A stretch of 64,000 bases of DNA, taken from NCBI GenBank assembly GCA_031286615.1, contig JAITUA010000015.1:62001-126000 (forward strand), in the 5' to 3' direction. Position numbers and translations under genes: made by a program. The DNA comes from Chryseobacterium sp. Its GTDB lineage: Bacteria > Bacteroidota > Bacteroidia > Flavobacteriales > Weeksellaceae. Below are positions 2,884-31,751 of the stretch, piece after piece (the first letter of the stretch is position 1; every line of letters begins with the position of its first letter). The notes beneath the pieces are model-generated. The model was not told the DNA's origin. It was given only the letters and a program-made list of their open reading frames with translations, and made no database searches.

Positions 2884-4812
2884 ATGACAAAATTGTACCT
2901 TTTGGTGTTGGGATTTTTATTTTCTCAGCAGTTCTATGGCCAGAAGCATGAGCAAAACATCGATATGAAAGGGTTGATCGAAAAAGAGAAAAAATCCTTT
3001 ACGCAAAAAATGAATATTGGGAATACGAATCCCAATACTCTGAATTACGATTTACAGTATCAAAGAATGGATGTTGCACTCAATCCGGCTTCCAATAATA
3101 TTTCGGGATCGGTAACTTCTCATTTTAAGCCTACTCAGAGTATGGGAAGTATTTATTTTGACCTGACCACTTCTTTAACGGTTTCTCAGGTTAAATATCA
3201 TGGTAACAATCTTGTATTTCAACAGCTTCCTTCCAACGAAGTGAAAATTGATTTTCAAACTCCAATAGCTGCCAATACGCTGGATTCTCTGACGATTCAT
3301 TATTCAGGAATGCCTCCTAGTACCAATGGAGCCTTTACAACAGCTACCCAAGGCGGAGTTCCGATACTTTCTACTTTAAATGAACCCTATGGAGCACAGG
3401 ACTGGTTTCCGACAAAACAAAGTTTGAATGATAAAATTGAAAGATTTGATTTCAAAATTACAACGCCATCCAATTACAGTGTTGCTGCCAACGGAAAATT
3501 AATGTCCGAAACTTTTCCTACAGGATCAACGAAACTTACTTTCTGGAGAACGATGTATCCTACACCGGCTTATCTTATCGCGTTGTCAATTACCAACTTT
3601 GTCAAGCTTACTGATACCATCGGAAATCCTCCATTTCCTTTTGTCAACTATATTTATCCATCCACTAATTCAAATCAAACCAGTCTGAATAATATTCAAT
3701 GGACGAAACTGGCTATGGATACTTTTGAGACGTATTTTGGGACTTATCCTTTCCGTAATGAAAAATACGGACATATGGAATTTATGTACGGTGGTGGTAT
3801 GGAACATCAGACGATGTCTTCTATGGGAGCCTGGAATAAACAGCTTATTGCCCATGAACTTGCCCATCAGTGGTTTGGTGATAAGGTAACCTGCGGTGCT
3901 TGGAATGATATCTGGCTGAATGAAGGTTTTGCTACTTTCGGGGAACATGTTGCCAATGAAAAATTACTGATGACTAATACCGAATTTCTTAATTATCTGC
4001 AAAGTCAATCCAATTATATTACAGCAAGTACAACGGGAACGGTATATGTACCAGATAGCGGACTTTCCAGTATCGGGAGAATATTCGACAGCAGACTGAC
4101 ATATTCTAAAGGAGGCTATATCCTGAGAATGTTGAAGTGGATTTTAGGTGATGCTGTTTTTTATCAGGCACTCAAAGACTATCACGCAAGACCAAACCTG
4201 GCCTACAGTTATGTGCGTACCGCGGATTTTAATGCTTCTCTGCTTCAGTCTACCGGTAAAGATTTTACAGAATTTTTTAATGACTGGGTGTATGGGGAAG
4301 GATATCCTACGTATACTATAAAATGGATGCAGGGCGGTAATCAGGCTTTGTTTAAGGTTTCTCAGACACAAAGCAGCGCTAACGTAAGCTTTTTTGAAAT
4401 GCCTTTACCTATAAAAGTTACCGGAACTTCAGGACAAACTGCTTATCTGGTTCTTAACAATACTTCAAATAACCAAAGTTTTTTAGAATCTGTAACATTC
4501 CCTATTGCAAGTGTTCAGTTCAATTATGAGTACCAGATTCTGGAGAAAAACTCTACCGTTACTCAGGATAATACCTTAAGTGTTTCTTCTGTTGAGAAGG
4601 AAAACTTCGGACTCTATCCAAATCCTGCAAAAAATGAAATTAATCTGAAAGGTATCAGCAGAGCTGCAGATTTTACGATTCATGCTGTAGATGGAAAACT
4701 GGTTACAAAAGGAACTTACCAGCCGGGTAAAGCGATTGGAATTTCAGAATTGGTTCCAGGGACTTACTTTATTACGATTGATGAAAAAAGTATCAAATTT
4801 ATCAAACATTAA
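2884..4812 (+). CDS. M1 family metallopeptidase (aminopeptidase N-like) with T9SS type A sorting domain
   Basis: This is a 642-residue secreted zinc aminopeptidase. A signal peptide covers about residues 1-19 (ending FYGQ). The substrate-end motif GGGMEH resembles the GAMEN loop. The zinc site is H324-E-L-A-H328 with E347 in NEGFATFGE, the exact HExxH-18-E spacing of M1 enzymes. The last 75 residues form a T9SS type A tail starting FGLYPNPAKNEINLKG and ending in KFIKH. The protein should therefore cross the outer membrane by the type IX system and be released or anchored outside. It is probably a nutrient-scavenging peptidase. It is monocistronic. Confidence 0.93.
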   Translation: MTKLYLLVLGFLFSQQFYGQKHEQNIDMKGLIEKEKKSFTQKMNIGNTNPNTLNYDLQYQRMDVALNPASNNISGSVTSHFKPTQSMGSIYFDLTTSLTVSQVKYHGNNLVFQQLPSNEVKIDFQTPIAANTLDSLTIHYSGMPPSTNGAFTTATQGGVPILSTLNEPYGAQDWFPTKQSLNDKIERFDFKITTPSNYSVAANGKLMSETFPTGSTKLTFWRTMYPTPAYLIALSITNFVKLTDTIGNPPFPFVNYIYPSTNSNQTSLNNIQWTKLAMDTFETYFGTYPFRNEKYGHMEFMYGGGMEHQTMSSMGAWNKQLIAHELAHQWFGDKVTCGAWNDIWLNEGFATFGEHVANEKLLMTNTEFLNYLQSQSNYITASTTGTVYVPDSGLSSIGRIFDSRLTYSKGGYILRMLKWILGDAVFYQALKDYHARPNLAYSYVRTADFNASLLQSTGKDFTEFFNDWVYGEGYPTYTIKWMQGGNQALFKVSQTQSSANVSFFEMPLPIKVTGTSGQTAYLVLNNTSNNQSFLESVTFPIASVQFNYEYQILEKNSTVTQDNTLSVSSVEKENFGLYPNPAKNEINLKGISRAADFTIHAVDGKLVTKGTYQPGKAIGISELVPGTYFITIDEKSIKFIKH

Positions 4813-4871
4813 AATTTAAGACTGTAGAATATCAATAGGTATTTTACTTACTATTGACGATACAATAATAG

Positions 4872-4895
4872 GAAGCTTTCAGATCTGAAAGCTTC
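4872..4895 (+). terminator. Intrinsic terminator overlapping a convergent stop codon
   Basis: A perfect 24-bp palindrome (arms GAAGCTTTCAGA and TCTGAAAGCTTC) is followed on the plus strand by TTTGTTTTC. It terminates the M1 peptidase transcript, and its right half lies inside the last codons of the convergent JmjC-like gene (stop at 4879). Confidence 0.8.
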
Positions 4896-5757
4896 TTTGT
4901 TTTCTGGCTGCTTTGGCTCCTCTCTTCCGGGCTATTTTTACTTTATACCCAAACCATCTTTCTTTAAATAGTTTACGCATGAGATTGTCAAAATGTCTTG
5001 TGATAACCAGGTTTTTAAAGCCTCTCCATTTTTCAAGAGGACTTGATGGTAAAGCTCTCACAGAAATGGAATAACCTTCTGTATCATACTGGATATAATG
5101 CCACCATCCGGAAGGAATATAAAGTGTTTCACCAGGATGAATTACTGCTTCATAACCATTTAAATAGAGTAGCGCAGGATATTTTCTGTAGTCAGGGTTT
5201 TTTATTTGGGCAAGACTGTGGAAATTATAAGGAAGCTTATACATGATATCAGACTGTTCCCAGGGAAAAAGCCAGATTCTTTTGATTCCCTGAAACTGGG
5301 TAATGAAAACATGTGACATATCAATGTCAATATGATTTCTTGTCACGGAACCTTCACCTCCAAAAAACATAAAAGGCAGCCATTTTAAAATTTTACCATT
5401 CGTAACATCATTGTAGATAAGATCATTTTTCAGTTCGGGTTTTATTTTTAATAAATTAAACAAAAAAAGGCGGTGTTCAGTAGGAACGGACTGTATAAGA
5501 TCGAGATATTCTGAAAATGTGCTTTGTGTTATAGGATCACTTGCTACTCTGTCAAGGGAATCAAGTTCACTGCCGTAAATATTTACTCTATGATCTCCCG
5601 CAATTTCTTTGAAATACTCATAATTCCATTTTTTGAAGGCAGGGCTTTCGGGATGTATAAAATCTTCAATAATAATTGGAATTCTCGGCTTCATATGGTC
5701 TTTAATAAAGGTTTCCGAATTGATTGTCTTTATTTTTTGTACCGGCTGTAATCTCAT
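4879..5757 (-). CDS. Cupin-like / JmjC-type Fe(II) 2-oxoglutarate oxygenase
   Basis: This 292-residue protein belongs to the cupin_8/JmjC-like family, which usually hydroxylates protein or small-molecule substrates using iron and 2-oxoglutarate. The iron facial triad is visible as H142-x-D144 (RNHIDID) and H220 (YIPSGWWHY), with the typical PGETLYIPSGWWH turn before the second histidine. A Lys/Arg-rich tail (KARKRGAKAARKQRS) ends the protein. The substrate is unknown. It is monocistronic. Its promoter carries a 22-bp element shared with the Rrf2/TauE promoter at 13.6 kb. Confidence 0.85.
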   Translation of the reverse strand: MRLQPVQKIKTINSETFIKDHMKPRIPIIIEDFIHPESPAFKKWNYEYFKEIAGDHRVNIYGSELDSLDRVASDPITQSTFSEYLDLIQSVPTEHRLFLFNLLKIKPELKNDLIYNDVTNGKILKWLPFMFFGGEGSVTRNHIDIDMSHVFITQFQGIKRIWLFPWEQSDIMYKLPYNFHSLAQIKNPDYRKYPALLYLNGYEAVIHPGETLYIPSGWWHYIQYDTEGYSISVRALPSSPLEKWRGFKNLVITRHFDNLMRKLFKERWFGYKVKIARKRGAKAARKQRSFQI

Positions 5758-30410: not shown

Positions 30411-30722
30411 TTATTTGACCTCTTTAATTTCCTTAATGATATTGGTTTTATTTTCAATACCAATATTATAGGTTTTATTTTTCTTAAAGCTTTGGGTTGC
30501 CTTTTCTATAAGAGTTTTGTACTCCGGTGATTTTTTTGAAATATAAAAAACCTGAGCACTGATTCCAATGGCAACACGCACCATTTCATTTGGTTTATCC
30601 GGATCTTCGGTGATATCTGAAATAGTAGCATTATTATACCAGGTTAAGTTCTGTGAACTGGAATTACCGGAACAGGATGTAATCATAATAAAAAGTAATA
30701 ATAAATAGGACCAGGCTTTCAT
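30411..30722 (-). CDS. Small lipoprotein resembling the protein-glutaminase pro-domain
   Basis: This 103-residue protein has a lipoprotein signal ending ITSC (C17). Its C-terminal half (MVRVAIGISAQVFYISKKSP...YKTLIEKATQ...) aligns by eye with the pro-region of the adjacent protein-glutaminase (FKISFMVTAQPYYIKDTKE...YISMIRQAVE), with shared (S/T)AQ-x-(F/Y)YI and the following IxxA helix. It could be a free-standing inhibitor or membrane-held chaperone of the enzyme. It lies downstream of that gene, separated by a terminator. The family likeness is my reading, not a database result. Confidence 0.7.
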   Translation of the reverse strand: MKAWSYLLLLFIMITSCSGNSSSQNLTWYNNATISDITEDPDKPNEMVRVAIGISAQVFYISKKSPEYKTLIEKATQSFKKNKTYNIGIENKTNIIKEIKEVK

Positions 30723-30743
30723 AGCAAAAAGTATTAAGTAAAA

Positions 30744-30778
30744 AGCTCCTGCAATGTATCAAAATAAATGCAGGAGCT
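30744..30778 (-). terminator. Terminator between protein-glutaminase and the small lipoprotein
   Basis: A 10-bp stem AGCTCCTGCA / TGCAGGAGCT with a 15-base loop is followed on the minus strand by TTTTTAC. Read-through or a separate promoter would be needed for the downstream lipoprotein. The sequence ATACTTTTTG just before its ATG is only an approximate -7 element. Confidence 0.8.
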
Positions 30779-30791
30779 CTATATAAATTAG

Positions 30792-31751
30792 TTAAAATCC
30801 ACAGCTTCCTACGCTAGGTGCAGGAGAAGGAGAACATCCTGAAAGGGATGAGAAGATATTCAATACACAATTGGTATTTACATAGTTGTTATCATACAAT
30901 AAAGATCCTGCCGGACTTCTGTAGTATACATTTCCTGCTGTATTGGCAAATGAAGATACGGAAGCAGATCCACAGCTTGTGTTGGTACATGCAGCTCTCC
31001 ATGCAGCATCAGTTACCGGCCCGCTGGAGAATAATGATGGATCAATGATTCTTTTTTCAACAATTCCGGAAGCATTTTTAAAGCTTACCAATATTGCTAC
31101 GTGATATACCCACGATACACAGCAAGTTCCTGTAGAAGCTCTCAGGTTACCATATACGAATTGCTTTTCACAGTCGTATCCTGCATTCAATAGTATTTGT
31201 CTCATTTTGTGGGCTCTTGCATAGCATCCGTCAACAGGATATCTGAATGTGATGCACGGAGACGAAGCTGTAGAAGTTCCGCAAGCCTGATTTTTTATCT
31301 GAGCAAACAGACTGTTTAAAGTGGCAAGGTTAGGAATAACGCTTACTGCTTTTCGGTTTTCTTCTTTTACTTCTTTAGTAAGAATAGATTTGAAATAACG
31401 GATATCTTCAGCGGTAGCTTTGTCTACTTTTGCGATTTCGCTGGTATTGGCTTTAAGGAAAATCTGAACAGGAGTTTCGTTTTCAACAGCCTGCCTGATC
31501 ATGGAAATATAACCTGCATTTTCTTTAGTGTCTTTGATGTAGTAGGGTTGGGCAGTAACCATAAATGAGATTTTAAATTTCCCATCTTCTTTGTCAATCC
31601 CTACCGGAACAGTTTTACCGAAATCTTTCATTGCGATTTCGTTTGACTCTTTAGCAACAAGATTAGGATCCTGGCTGGCAGCTGAATCTGAGCAGGAATT
31701 AAATGACAGTACCGTCACGAATACCATCATGGATAACAGAAATTTTTTCAT
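30792..31751 (-). CDS. Protein-glutamine glutaminase preproprotein
   Basis: This 319-residue secreted enzyme deamidates glutamine side chains in intact proteins, as in Chryseobacterium proteolyticum. The signal region covers residues 1-20 and the pro-region about 21-134. The mature enzyme is about 185 residues, from AVSVIPNLATL to the C-terminal GSCGF. The catalytic triad is complete in the expected places: C176 (PVDGCYARAH), H217 (WVYHVAI) and D237 (RIIDPSL), equal to Cys42, His83 and Asp103 of the mature protein. The many mature cysteines suggest disulfides. The signal ends FNSC and could be a weak lipobox. Confidence 0.93.
   Translation of the reverse strand: MKKFLLSMMVFVTVLSFNSCSDSAASQDPNLVAKESNEIAMKDFGKTVPVGIDKEDGKFKISFMVTAQPYYIKDTKENAGYISMIRQAVENETPVQIFLKANTSEIAKVDKATAEDIRYFKSILTKEVKEENRKAVSVIPNLATLNSLFAQIKNQACGTSTASSPCITFRYPVDGCYARAHKMRQILLNAGYDCEKQFVYGNLRASTGTCCVSWVYHVAILVSFKNASGIVEKRIIDPSLFSSGPVTDAAWRAACTNTSCGSASVSSFANTAGNVYYRSPAGSLLYDNNYVNTNCVLNIFSSLSGCSPSPAPSVGSCGF

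Follow-up and report, generated by a model that had tools for sequence, protein, structure and literature searches.

A lipoprotein homologous to the protein-glutaminase pro-region is encoded beside the enzyme gene in Chryseobacterium and is a candidate inhibitor in trans

Free-standing, propeptide-like inhibitors have been described for proteases, including the I29 proteins CTLA-2alpha, crammer and BCPI (PMC4089206; see also PMC3551606) and a propeptide-like inhibitor of the malaria subtilisin SUB1 (PMC6993865). Inhibitor genes are also found beside those of secreted cysteine proteases, as in the pairs Spi/SpeB and staphostatins/staphopains and in the Bacteroides Bfi and Bti proteins accompanying C10 proteases, with BtiA and BtiB being predicted lipoproteins (PMC3462683). 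Here, we analysed a stretch of 64,000 nucleotides from Chryseobacterium sp. (assembly GCA_031286615.1, contig JAITUA010000015.1, positions 62,001 to 126,000 of the forward strand; hereafter, the window), in which the gene for a protein-glutaminase (PG) is followed by that of a 103-residue lipoprotein resembling the PG pro-region. PG acts on protein-bound Gln and is a commercial food enzyme, which has been in the literature since about 2001. Like the I29 and SUB1 inhibitors, the lipoprotein is a separate protein homologous to the enzyme's own propeptide; however, those inhibitors target proteases and the examples are eukaryotic, whereas the lipoprotein is the bacterial neighbour of a deamidase, its presumed target. 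With Spi, the staphostatins and Bfi/Bti, it shares the layout of a small gene adjoining that of a secreted cysteine enzyme, although their enzymes are proteases. Spi reportedly resembles the propeptide of SpeB and, if this likeness holds, is the nearest bacterial parallel to the lipoprotein; staphostatin-type proteins are, to our knowledge, not propeptide homologues. Neither I29 nor another known propeptide-inhibitor domain was matched by the lipoprotein in Pfam, where RMI1_C alone was returned (E 0.055).

Homology to the pro-region, a common motif, near-obligate adjacency to the enzyme gene, recurrence of the pair in a second, distant lineage and purifying selection lead us to propose, with a probability of about 0.62, that the lipoprotein is a PG pro-domain homologue encoded on its own which would inhibit the neighbouring PG in trans. 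The features of the locus are as follows:

30792..31751, minus strand: PG gene, encoding a pre-pro protein-glutaminase of 319 residues (NF040782.1, E 4.7e-143; PF18626, E 2.6e-27; 3a56, E 6.4e-152)
30411..30722, minus strand: gene for the free-standing, pro-domain-like lipoprotein of 103 residues, 69 bp downstream of the PG gene
30672..30722, minus strand: lipoprotein signal peptide and lipobox (residues 1-17, MITS-C17), the motif being judged by eye
30414..30650, minus strand: pro-like domain of the lipoprotein (residues 25-103), from hhalign against the PG pro-region and the profiles of family f18 (see below)
30540..30569, minus strand: putative plug segment of the lipoprotein, IGISAQVFYI (residues 52-61), with A56 aligned to Ala47 of pro-PG
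30742..30780, minus strand: hairpin in the intergenic gap, followed in the window by a short T run (folding and covariation)
31350..31691, minus strand: PG pro-region (residues 21-134), from alignment with 3a54/3a56
31536..31571, minus strand: plug segment of the PG pro-region, ISFMVTAQPYYI (residues 61-72), with A67 corresponding to residue 47 of pro-PG
31224..31226, minus strand: PG catalytic Cys176 (Cys156 in pro-form numbering)
31101..31103, minus strand: PG catalytic His217 (His197 in pro-form numbering)
31041..31043, minus strand: PG catalytic Asp237 (Asp217 in pro-form numbering)

The pro-form numbering of the catalytic residues as Cys156, His197 and Asp217 follows PMC4214742, and the mature form of the Chryseobacterium cucumeris enzyme begins after 134 residues (PMC9396377). 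The NCBI PG model NF040782.1 covers the window enzyme over its full length, and the window genome contains a single clear copy of each gene. An earlier reading of the window (hereafter, the original prediction) had placed both genes, with their strands and lengths, and the catalytic triad C176, H217 and D237 correctly. The lipid anchor that it suggested is likewise borne out by the lipobox: among 45 aligned lipoproteins, C17 and S18 are invariant and S16 is present in 44, and the 103-residue protein carries, as judged by eye, the signal peptide with a lipobox Cys that characterizes bacterial lipoproteins.

The resemblance between the lipoprotein and the pro-region, which the original prediction had aligned by eye, exceeds chance. 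NF040782.1 matches the lipoprotein with an E-value of 0.002 (residues 11-101 against model positions 14-111), in the same register. A marginally better score goes to the MG095 lipoprotein model (E 0.0012), whose match to residues 7-62 begins within the signal peptide; since a model for another type of lipoprotein outscored the PG model, the mature parts were compared without signal peptides. A profile of the 45 lipoproteins so trimmed, aligned with a profile of the pro-regions of 44 enzymes (effective numbers of sequences, Neff, 1.8 and 2.3, both shallow), yielded a score of 26.45 over 54 columns (P 3.5e-4, HH-suite probability 37%). The top score with 100 column-shuffled pro-regions was 17.1, none of the 100 equalling the real one, and the same lipoprotein profile gave P 0.88 with the catalytic domain and P 0.68 with the reversed pro-region. 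Two other candidate relatives of the lipoprotein, the MG095 model itself and RMI1_C, were rejected. A search of the Protein Data Bank (PDB) with the lipoprotein returned RMI1 alone (E about 0.5), which was disregarded.

The pairing recurs far from Chryseobacterium. In a sample of the phylum, PF18626 was found in 12 of 395 genomes, 4 of them from a single family (f18). The FMO antenna protein (PF02327) is present in all 4 f18 enzyme genomes and absent from 3 genomes of the window's family that were searched together with them, and f18 was therefore taken as Chlorobiaceae, green sulfur bacteria. The f18 enzymes retain the motifs DGCYARAH, WYHVAP and VIDP, start with a pro-like domain (plug example FNESPRIFEL) and have no signal peptide by eye. 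Each of the 4 is followed, 35-297 bp on and on the same strand, by an open reading frame (ORF) of 81-98 residues with no visible signal peptide; the lipoprotein profile matches these ORFs with E-values of 3e-5, 1.9e-4, 0.0058 and 0.46 (for 1000 sequences). When a profile of the f18 partners was run against 86 f18 genomes, partners were found in exactly the 4 enzyme genomes, and the next-best matches were the N-termini of the 4 cognate enzymes (E 2.7e-5 to 3.3e-4); none of the 82 enzyme-less f18 genomes had a partner, 3 weak, stop-containing matches (G597, G526 and G572; E 0.039-0.062) being disregarded. A search of the PDB with the f18 partner gave zero matches. The joint profile of free-standing (trans) forms matched 7 of 390 phylum genomes, every one an enzyme genome. 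The remaining 5 phylum genomes with PF18626 gave no match to this profile, though the presence of all 5 among the 390 is not certain; in 3 of these, no more than about 75 residues precede the catalytic motif, too few to accommodate a pro-domain, and the other 2, G519 and G467, had no ATG frame in the scan. Within the window's own family, of which 296 genomes were sampled, another genus (G194) has the two genes side by side, the lipoprotein being diverged; a match in G211 (E 4.7e-4, residues 1-37) was disregarded. The G194 lipoprotein (L122:4437-5057) bears an extra C-terminal bacterial Ig-like domain (Big_14, PF20251, E 1e-6).

In hhalign comparisons, the pro-like domain of the lipoprotein matched the PG pro-region with E 2.9e-4, the f18 free-standing protein with E 5.6e-6 and the N-terminus of the f18 enzyme with E 2.7e-4. 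All 6 pairings of the 4 groups (cis and trans domains from Chryseobacterium and f18) aligned in a common register, with E-values of 1e-7 to 2.9e-4 and none of 100 shuffles scoring as high in each case. Judged by these profiles, the lipoprotein is a remote homologue of the PG pro-region, and the profile search thus bears out the similarity on which the original prediction was founded. Compared with the pro-region, the lipoprotein is a separate ORF with its own lipoprotein signal rather than a domain in cis, and is without the cleavage site and the C-terminal portion, the alignment stopping short of the final section of the pro-region. A tree of the cis and trans domains (76 columns) neither supported nor contradicted a single origin of the free-standing forms.

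A strongly conserved stretch of the lipoprotein corresponds to the segment that would plug the active site. The alignment pairs I52-GIS-A56-Q57-VFYI of the lipoprotein with F63-MVT-A67-Q68-PYYI of the pro-region, and A67 corresponds to residue 47 of pro-PG, which is Gln in structures 3a54/3a55 and Ala in 3a56. In work reportedly by Hashizume and colleagues from 2011, Ala47 is said to sit at the catalytic cysteine of the pro-form, with the Gln mutant mimicking a bound substrate. Seven lipoprotein residues around this site (I52, G53, I54, S55, Q57, F59 and Y60) are invariant in all 45 sequences, as are A67 and Q68 of the pro-region in all 44 enzymes. The motif (S/T)-(A/P)-(Q/R) at the residue-47 site, which as (S/T)-A-Q is common to the pro-region and most of the lipoproteins, takes the form S-A-Q or S-P-Q in 42 of the 45 lipoproteins and is replaced by S-Q-Q in the other 3; in f18, it is S-A-R in 4/4 trans and S-P-(R/S/Q) in 4/4 cis domains. 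Gln at position 56 of the lipoprotein, the residue found at this site in 3a54/3a55, occurs naturally in L029, L040 and L045, plus L114. The last of these (G148:C9:47000-55000, positions 2970-5698) is a tandem of an enzyme, the lipoprotein and a second enzyme, both pro-regions having R-A-Q at the plug.

Clear copies of the lipoprotein were found exclusively next to a PG-family gene. A scan of genome contigs from GTDB yielded 44 loci, and at all 44 PG immediately precedes the lipoprotein gene on the same strand with a gap of 53-74 bp, the PG frame being broken at one (L021). Across 173 Chryseobacterium genomes, the PF18626 enzyme family is present in 105, and the lipoprotein profile matched, also in 105, at E 0.01 or better, of which 100 were retained. 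Four weak matches (G010, G060, G155 and G159; E 2.9e-4 to 0.008) and a decayed one (G126, partial and with stops) were dropped, second, weak matches in G099 and G125 were disregarded and G147, in which the lipoprotein frame is split, was counted among the 100; G010, G155 and G159 match largely through the signal peptide and the stretch after it. Each of the 100 clear copies comes from an enzyme genome and shares contig and strand with the enzyme, lying 250-333 bp past the matched part of the catalytic domain, whereas 5 enzyme genomes have no clear lipoprotein. Setting aside the 4 weak matches, none of the 68 enzyme-less Chryseobacterium genomes has a clear copy, so that, together with the 82 enzyme-less f18 genomes lacking the counterpart, the co-occurrence survey agrees with the partnership envisaged in the original prediction. 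Fisher's test for the presence of lipoprotein and enzyme gives 1e-42, a value not to be taken literally because the genomes share ancestry and the locus appears to be syntenic.

The lipoprotein is a real gene under purifying selection. The median ratio of nonsynonymous to synonymous substitution rates (dN/dS), calculated for pairs with dS of 0.1-1.5, is 0.106 for the mature lipoprotein (380 pairs), 0.146 for the pro-region (402 pairs) and 0.063 for the mature enzyme (609 pairs). The gene lies directly downstream of that of its putative target, as do those of polymorphic-toxin immunity proteins; however, such low ratios indicate that the lipoprotein is not diversifying in the manner of arms-race immunity proteins, and a fast-evolving toxin immunity protein was rejected on this ground. 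A defence system was rejected as well, the lipoprotein having no padloc match. Hence, of the immunity-like role considered in the original prediction, the partnership with PG is upheld by adjacency in all 100 cases, whereas immunity in the strict sense is weakened both by the slow evolution of the lipoprotein and by genomes that retain PG without an intact copy of it (G048, G157, G126 and G147).

The original prediction further took the sequence between the genes for a terminator that would give the lipoprotein an independent dosage. The 69-bp gap does fold into a hairpin, followed by a T run in the window but not in every relative. The intergenic regions reach -15.8 kcal/mol or lower in 44 of 45 cases, a figure given without shuffles, the exception being L041. 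In a covariation analysis of 24 of the 45 regions, 98.1% of the cells are paired and 4 of the 9 pairs have changed on both sides, exceeding shuffled and slid controls. Thus, the hairpin is real and conserved, but independent dosage is unsupported: the lipoprotein ATG lies only about 20 bases beyond the stem, making a separate promoter downstream of the hairpin unlikely. The arrangement fits better with an attenuator allowing read-through, by which the lipoprotein would receive a minor share of the PG transcript. A promoter consensus for Bacteroidetes was matched upstream of PG in 5 of 44 cases and upstream of the lipoprotein in 1 of 44, an uninformative result. In Chryseobacterium proteolyticum, promoter prediction places a conserved hypothetical protein under the PG promoter (PMC6132073). 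This protein, ORF 3589 of strain QSH1265, consists of a 22-residue signal and 80 further residues and shares its promoter with PG; from its size and common promoter, it is probably the orthologue of the lipoprotein. In section 12 of that report, it is described only as conserved and perhaps related to secretion, with no link to the pro-region (PMC6132073).

The pro-form of C. proteolyticum PG is inactive and that of Bacteroides helcogenes PG has roughly 17-fold lower activity than the mature enzyme (PMC13139226, PMC12791059), and the cleaved propeptide may remain with mature PG (PMC13139226). Under the proposed inhibition in trans, PG would leave the cytoplasm as an inactive pro-form, its pro-region blocking the active site until a protease outside removes it. 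The lipoprotein, anchored by its N-terminal Cys and probably exposed on the periplasmic face of an envelope membrane, could capture PG that has matured too early or re-enters the envelope, binding it with the strand IGIS-(A/P/Q)-Q-(V/I)FY laid over the Cys-His-Asp site in the manner of the (T/S)-A-Q strand of the pro-region. The leaky hairpin 3' of the PG gene might hold the lipoprotein at a fraction of the PG level, and the f18 pair would act in the cytoplasm. That the pairing recurs in such distant bacteria suggests that the lipoprotein is probably a dedicated PG inhibitor.

Several observations weigh against inhibition in trans. PG carries a pro-region of its own, so that a second inhibitor would need a reason, and if PG exits the cell quickly the two proteins may be apart in space. 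BLASTP of the window lipoprotein against the window PG gave no significant match (E 5.7), meaning that their likeness is detectable by profiles only; the HH-suite probability is 40-53% in 4 of the 6 group pairings (86% and 94% in the remaining 2), with the f18 profiles being built from 4 sequences each. At position 56, the 45 lipoproteins have A in 29, P in 13 and Q in 3, compared with Ala in all 44 pro-regions. Nor is the lipoprotein essential for carrying PG, since several enzyme genomes lack an intact copy: G048 and G157 keep PG with no lipoprotein remnant and G126 retains a remnant with stops, the 3 sharing by eye the layout lipB, hydrolase, PG and then a nitroreductase gene; in G147 the split lipoprotein frame lies beside PG; and G064 and G089 have more divergent PG-family enzymes with no lipoprotein. 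Conversely, G129, the genome of locus L021, has an intact lipoprotein beside the broken PG. Outside Chryseobacterium, G204, from another genus of the family, has PG with no partner detected.

Among the alternatives, the strongest, although in our view an unlikely one, is that the free-standing pro-domain helps PG to fold or to be secreted, templating its folding in the periplasm or passing it to export. Pro-regions often serve as intramolecular chaperones, and the homology and adjacency data are also compatible with such a role. The authors of the C. proteolyticum genome also guessed at a link to the secretion pathway for the presumed orthologue (PMC6132073). However, all 44 aligned enzymes keep their own pro-region, active PGs have been produced in Bacillus subtilis and B. 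helcogenes pro-PG in Escherichia coli with no lipoprotein gene mentioned in the available text of the reports (PMC13139226, PMC12791059), and the would-be plug motif is strongly conserved. The conserved glutamine in this motif raises a different scenario, in which PG deamidates the lipoprotein at Gln57 (or Gln56 in some species), reporting or relieving PG activity at the envelope. Q57 is indeed invariant (45/45), Gln occupies the plug site of 3 of 45 lipoproteins and protein-bound Gln is the substrate of PG; yet 42 of 45 have Ala or Pro at position 56, and the pro-region counterpart of Q57, Q68, is likewise invariant in the pro-form, which makes a substrate or sensor role quite improbable.

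The remaining two alternatives we regard as slightly more improbable, to much the same degree. The lipoprotein could be an unrelated neighbour held in place by synteny, its likeness to the pro-region being due to chance or analogy, and here the apparent synteny of the locus, by which the 100 genomes are not independent, and the shallowness of the profiles (Neff 1.8 and 2.3) would count in its favour. Against this, an enzyme paired with a pro-like ORF recurs both in f18 and in G194, from a further genus of the window's family, 6 of 6 profile comparisons agree and no clear orphan copies are known from the genomes surveyed. Alternatively, the lipid anchor, together with the fact that pro-regions are targets of proteases, would suit a decoy binding the activating protease or a tether retaining mature PG on the cell surface, with catalysis not being inhibited, and a cleaved propeptide may stay bound to PG (PMC13139226). 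The lipoprotein nevertheless ends too early to include the final section of the pro-region or the cleavage site, where the protease would cut, and the f18 partner has no signal peptide by eye. Inhibition in trans is thus the reading that we prefer. A bolder extension of it, which we consider doubtful, is that the locus represents an old two-gene deamidase module combining a cis pro-domain with a free-standing trans copy, acting at the envelope in Chryseobacterium and its kin and in the cytoplasm in green sulfur bacteria; in species with Gln at the plug, PG might deamidate its own inhibitor, creating a self-relieving, timed brake.

No pro-domain-type inhibitor of PG or of another deamidase was found in the open-licence literature in PubMed Central. 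If inhibition in trans is correct, the lipoprotein would, as far as that literature shows, be the first inhibitor of the propeptide type described whose target is a deamidase and not a protease. Such a protein could also serve as a genetically encoded off-switch in strains producing PG, hint at how PG producers escape self-deamidation and single out, for testing, an inhibitor pair in green sulfur bacteria, the PG-type enzymes of which show no signal peptide.

Neither the enzyme nor the trans profile matched viral contigs. Plasmids, queried with 2 enzymes only, yielded one divergent enzyme, on a plasmid of Sinorhizobium BG8, with no partner noticed nearby. This enzyme (L165:2404-3516; 370 residues) may have 2 tandem pro-like repeats at its N-terminus, a weak signal for which the joint profile gives P 0.007 and 0.002, with nothing from most single-group profiles or between the two halves. 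In G204 (L123:2128-6036), PG lies between 2 ribonucleotide reductase-like genes, as judged by eye, with one small ORF between, and has S-H-R at the plug. The G089 genome contains 9 PF18626 matches (L116, L117 and L118), 7 of which cluster on contig C2 in a stretch of about 13 kb; some of these PG-family copies have no recognizable pro-region and there is no lipoprotein partner. Full-length lipoproteins at G085:C1:1705971-1706297 and G124:C111:874595-874921 stand beside short enzyme frames (213 and 235 residues), and these enzymes are perhaps decaying too. In the enzyme-less genome G060, the lipoprotein profile matched a 239-residue membrane protein (L109:2729-3448; E 2.9e-4; DUF3592, E 0.011), possibly a distant relative with the same fold.

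The signal of PG itself has been printed as 21 and as 16 residues long (PMC6132073, PMC9396377). In the 44 orthologues, residue 20 (31689-31694 for residues 20-21) is invariably Cys, preceded by N-(S/A) and with Asp or Glu two residues after it in all 44. Hence PG, though called secreted, may itself be a lipoprotein in its pro-form.

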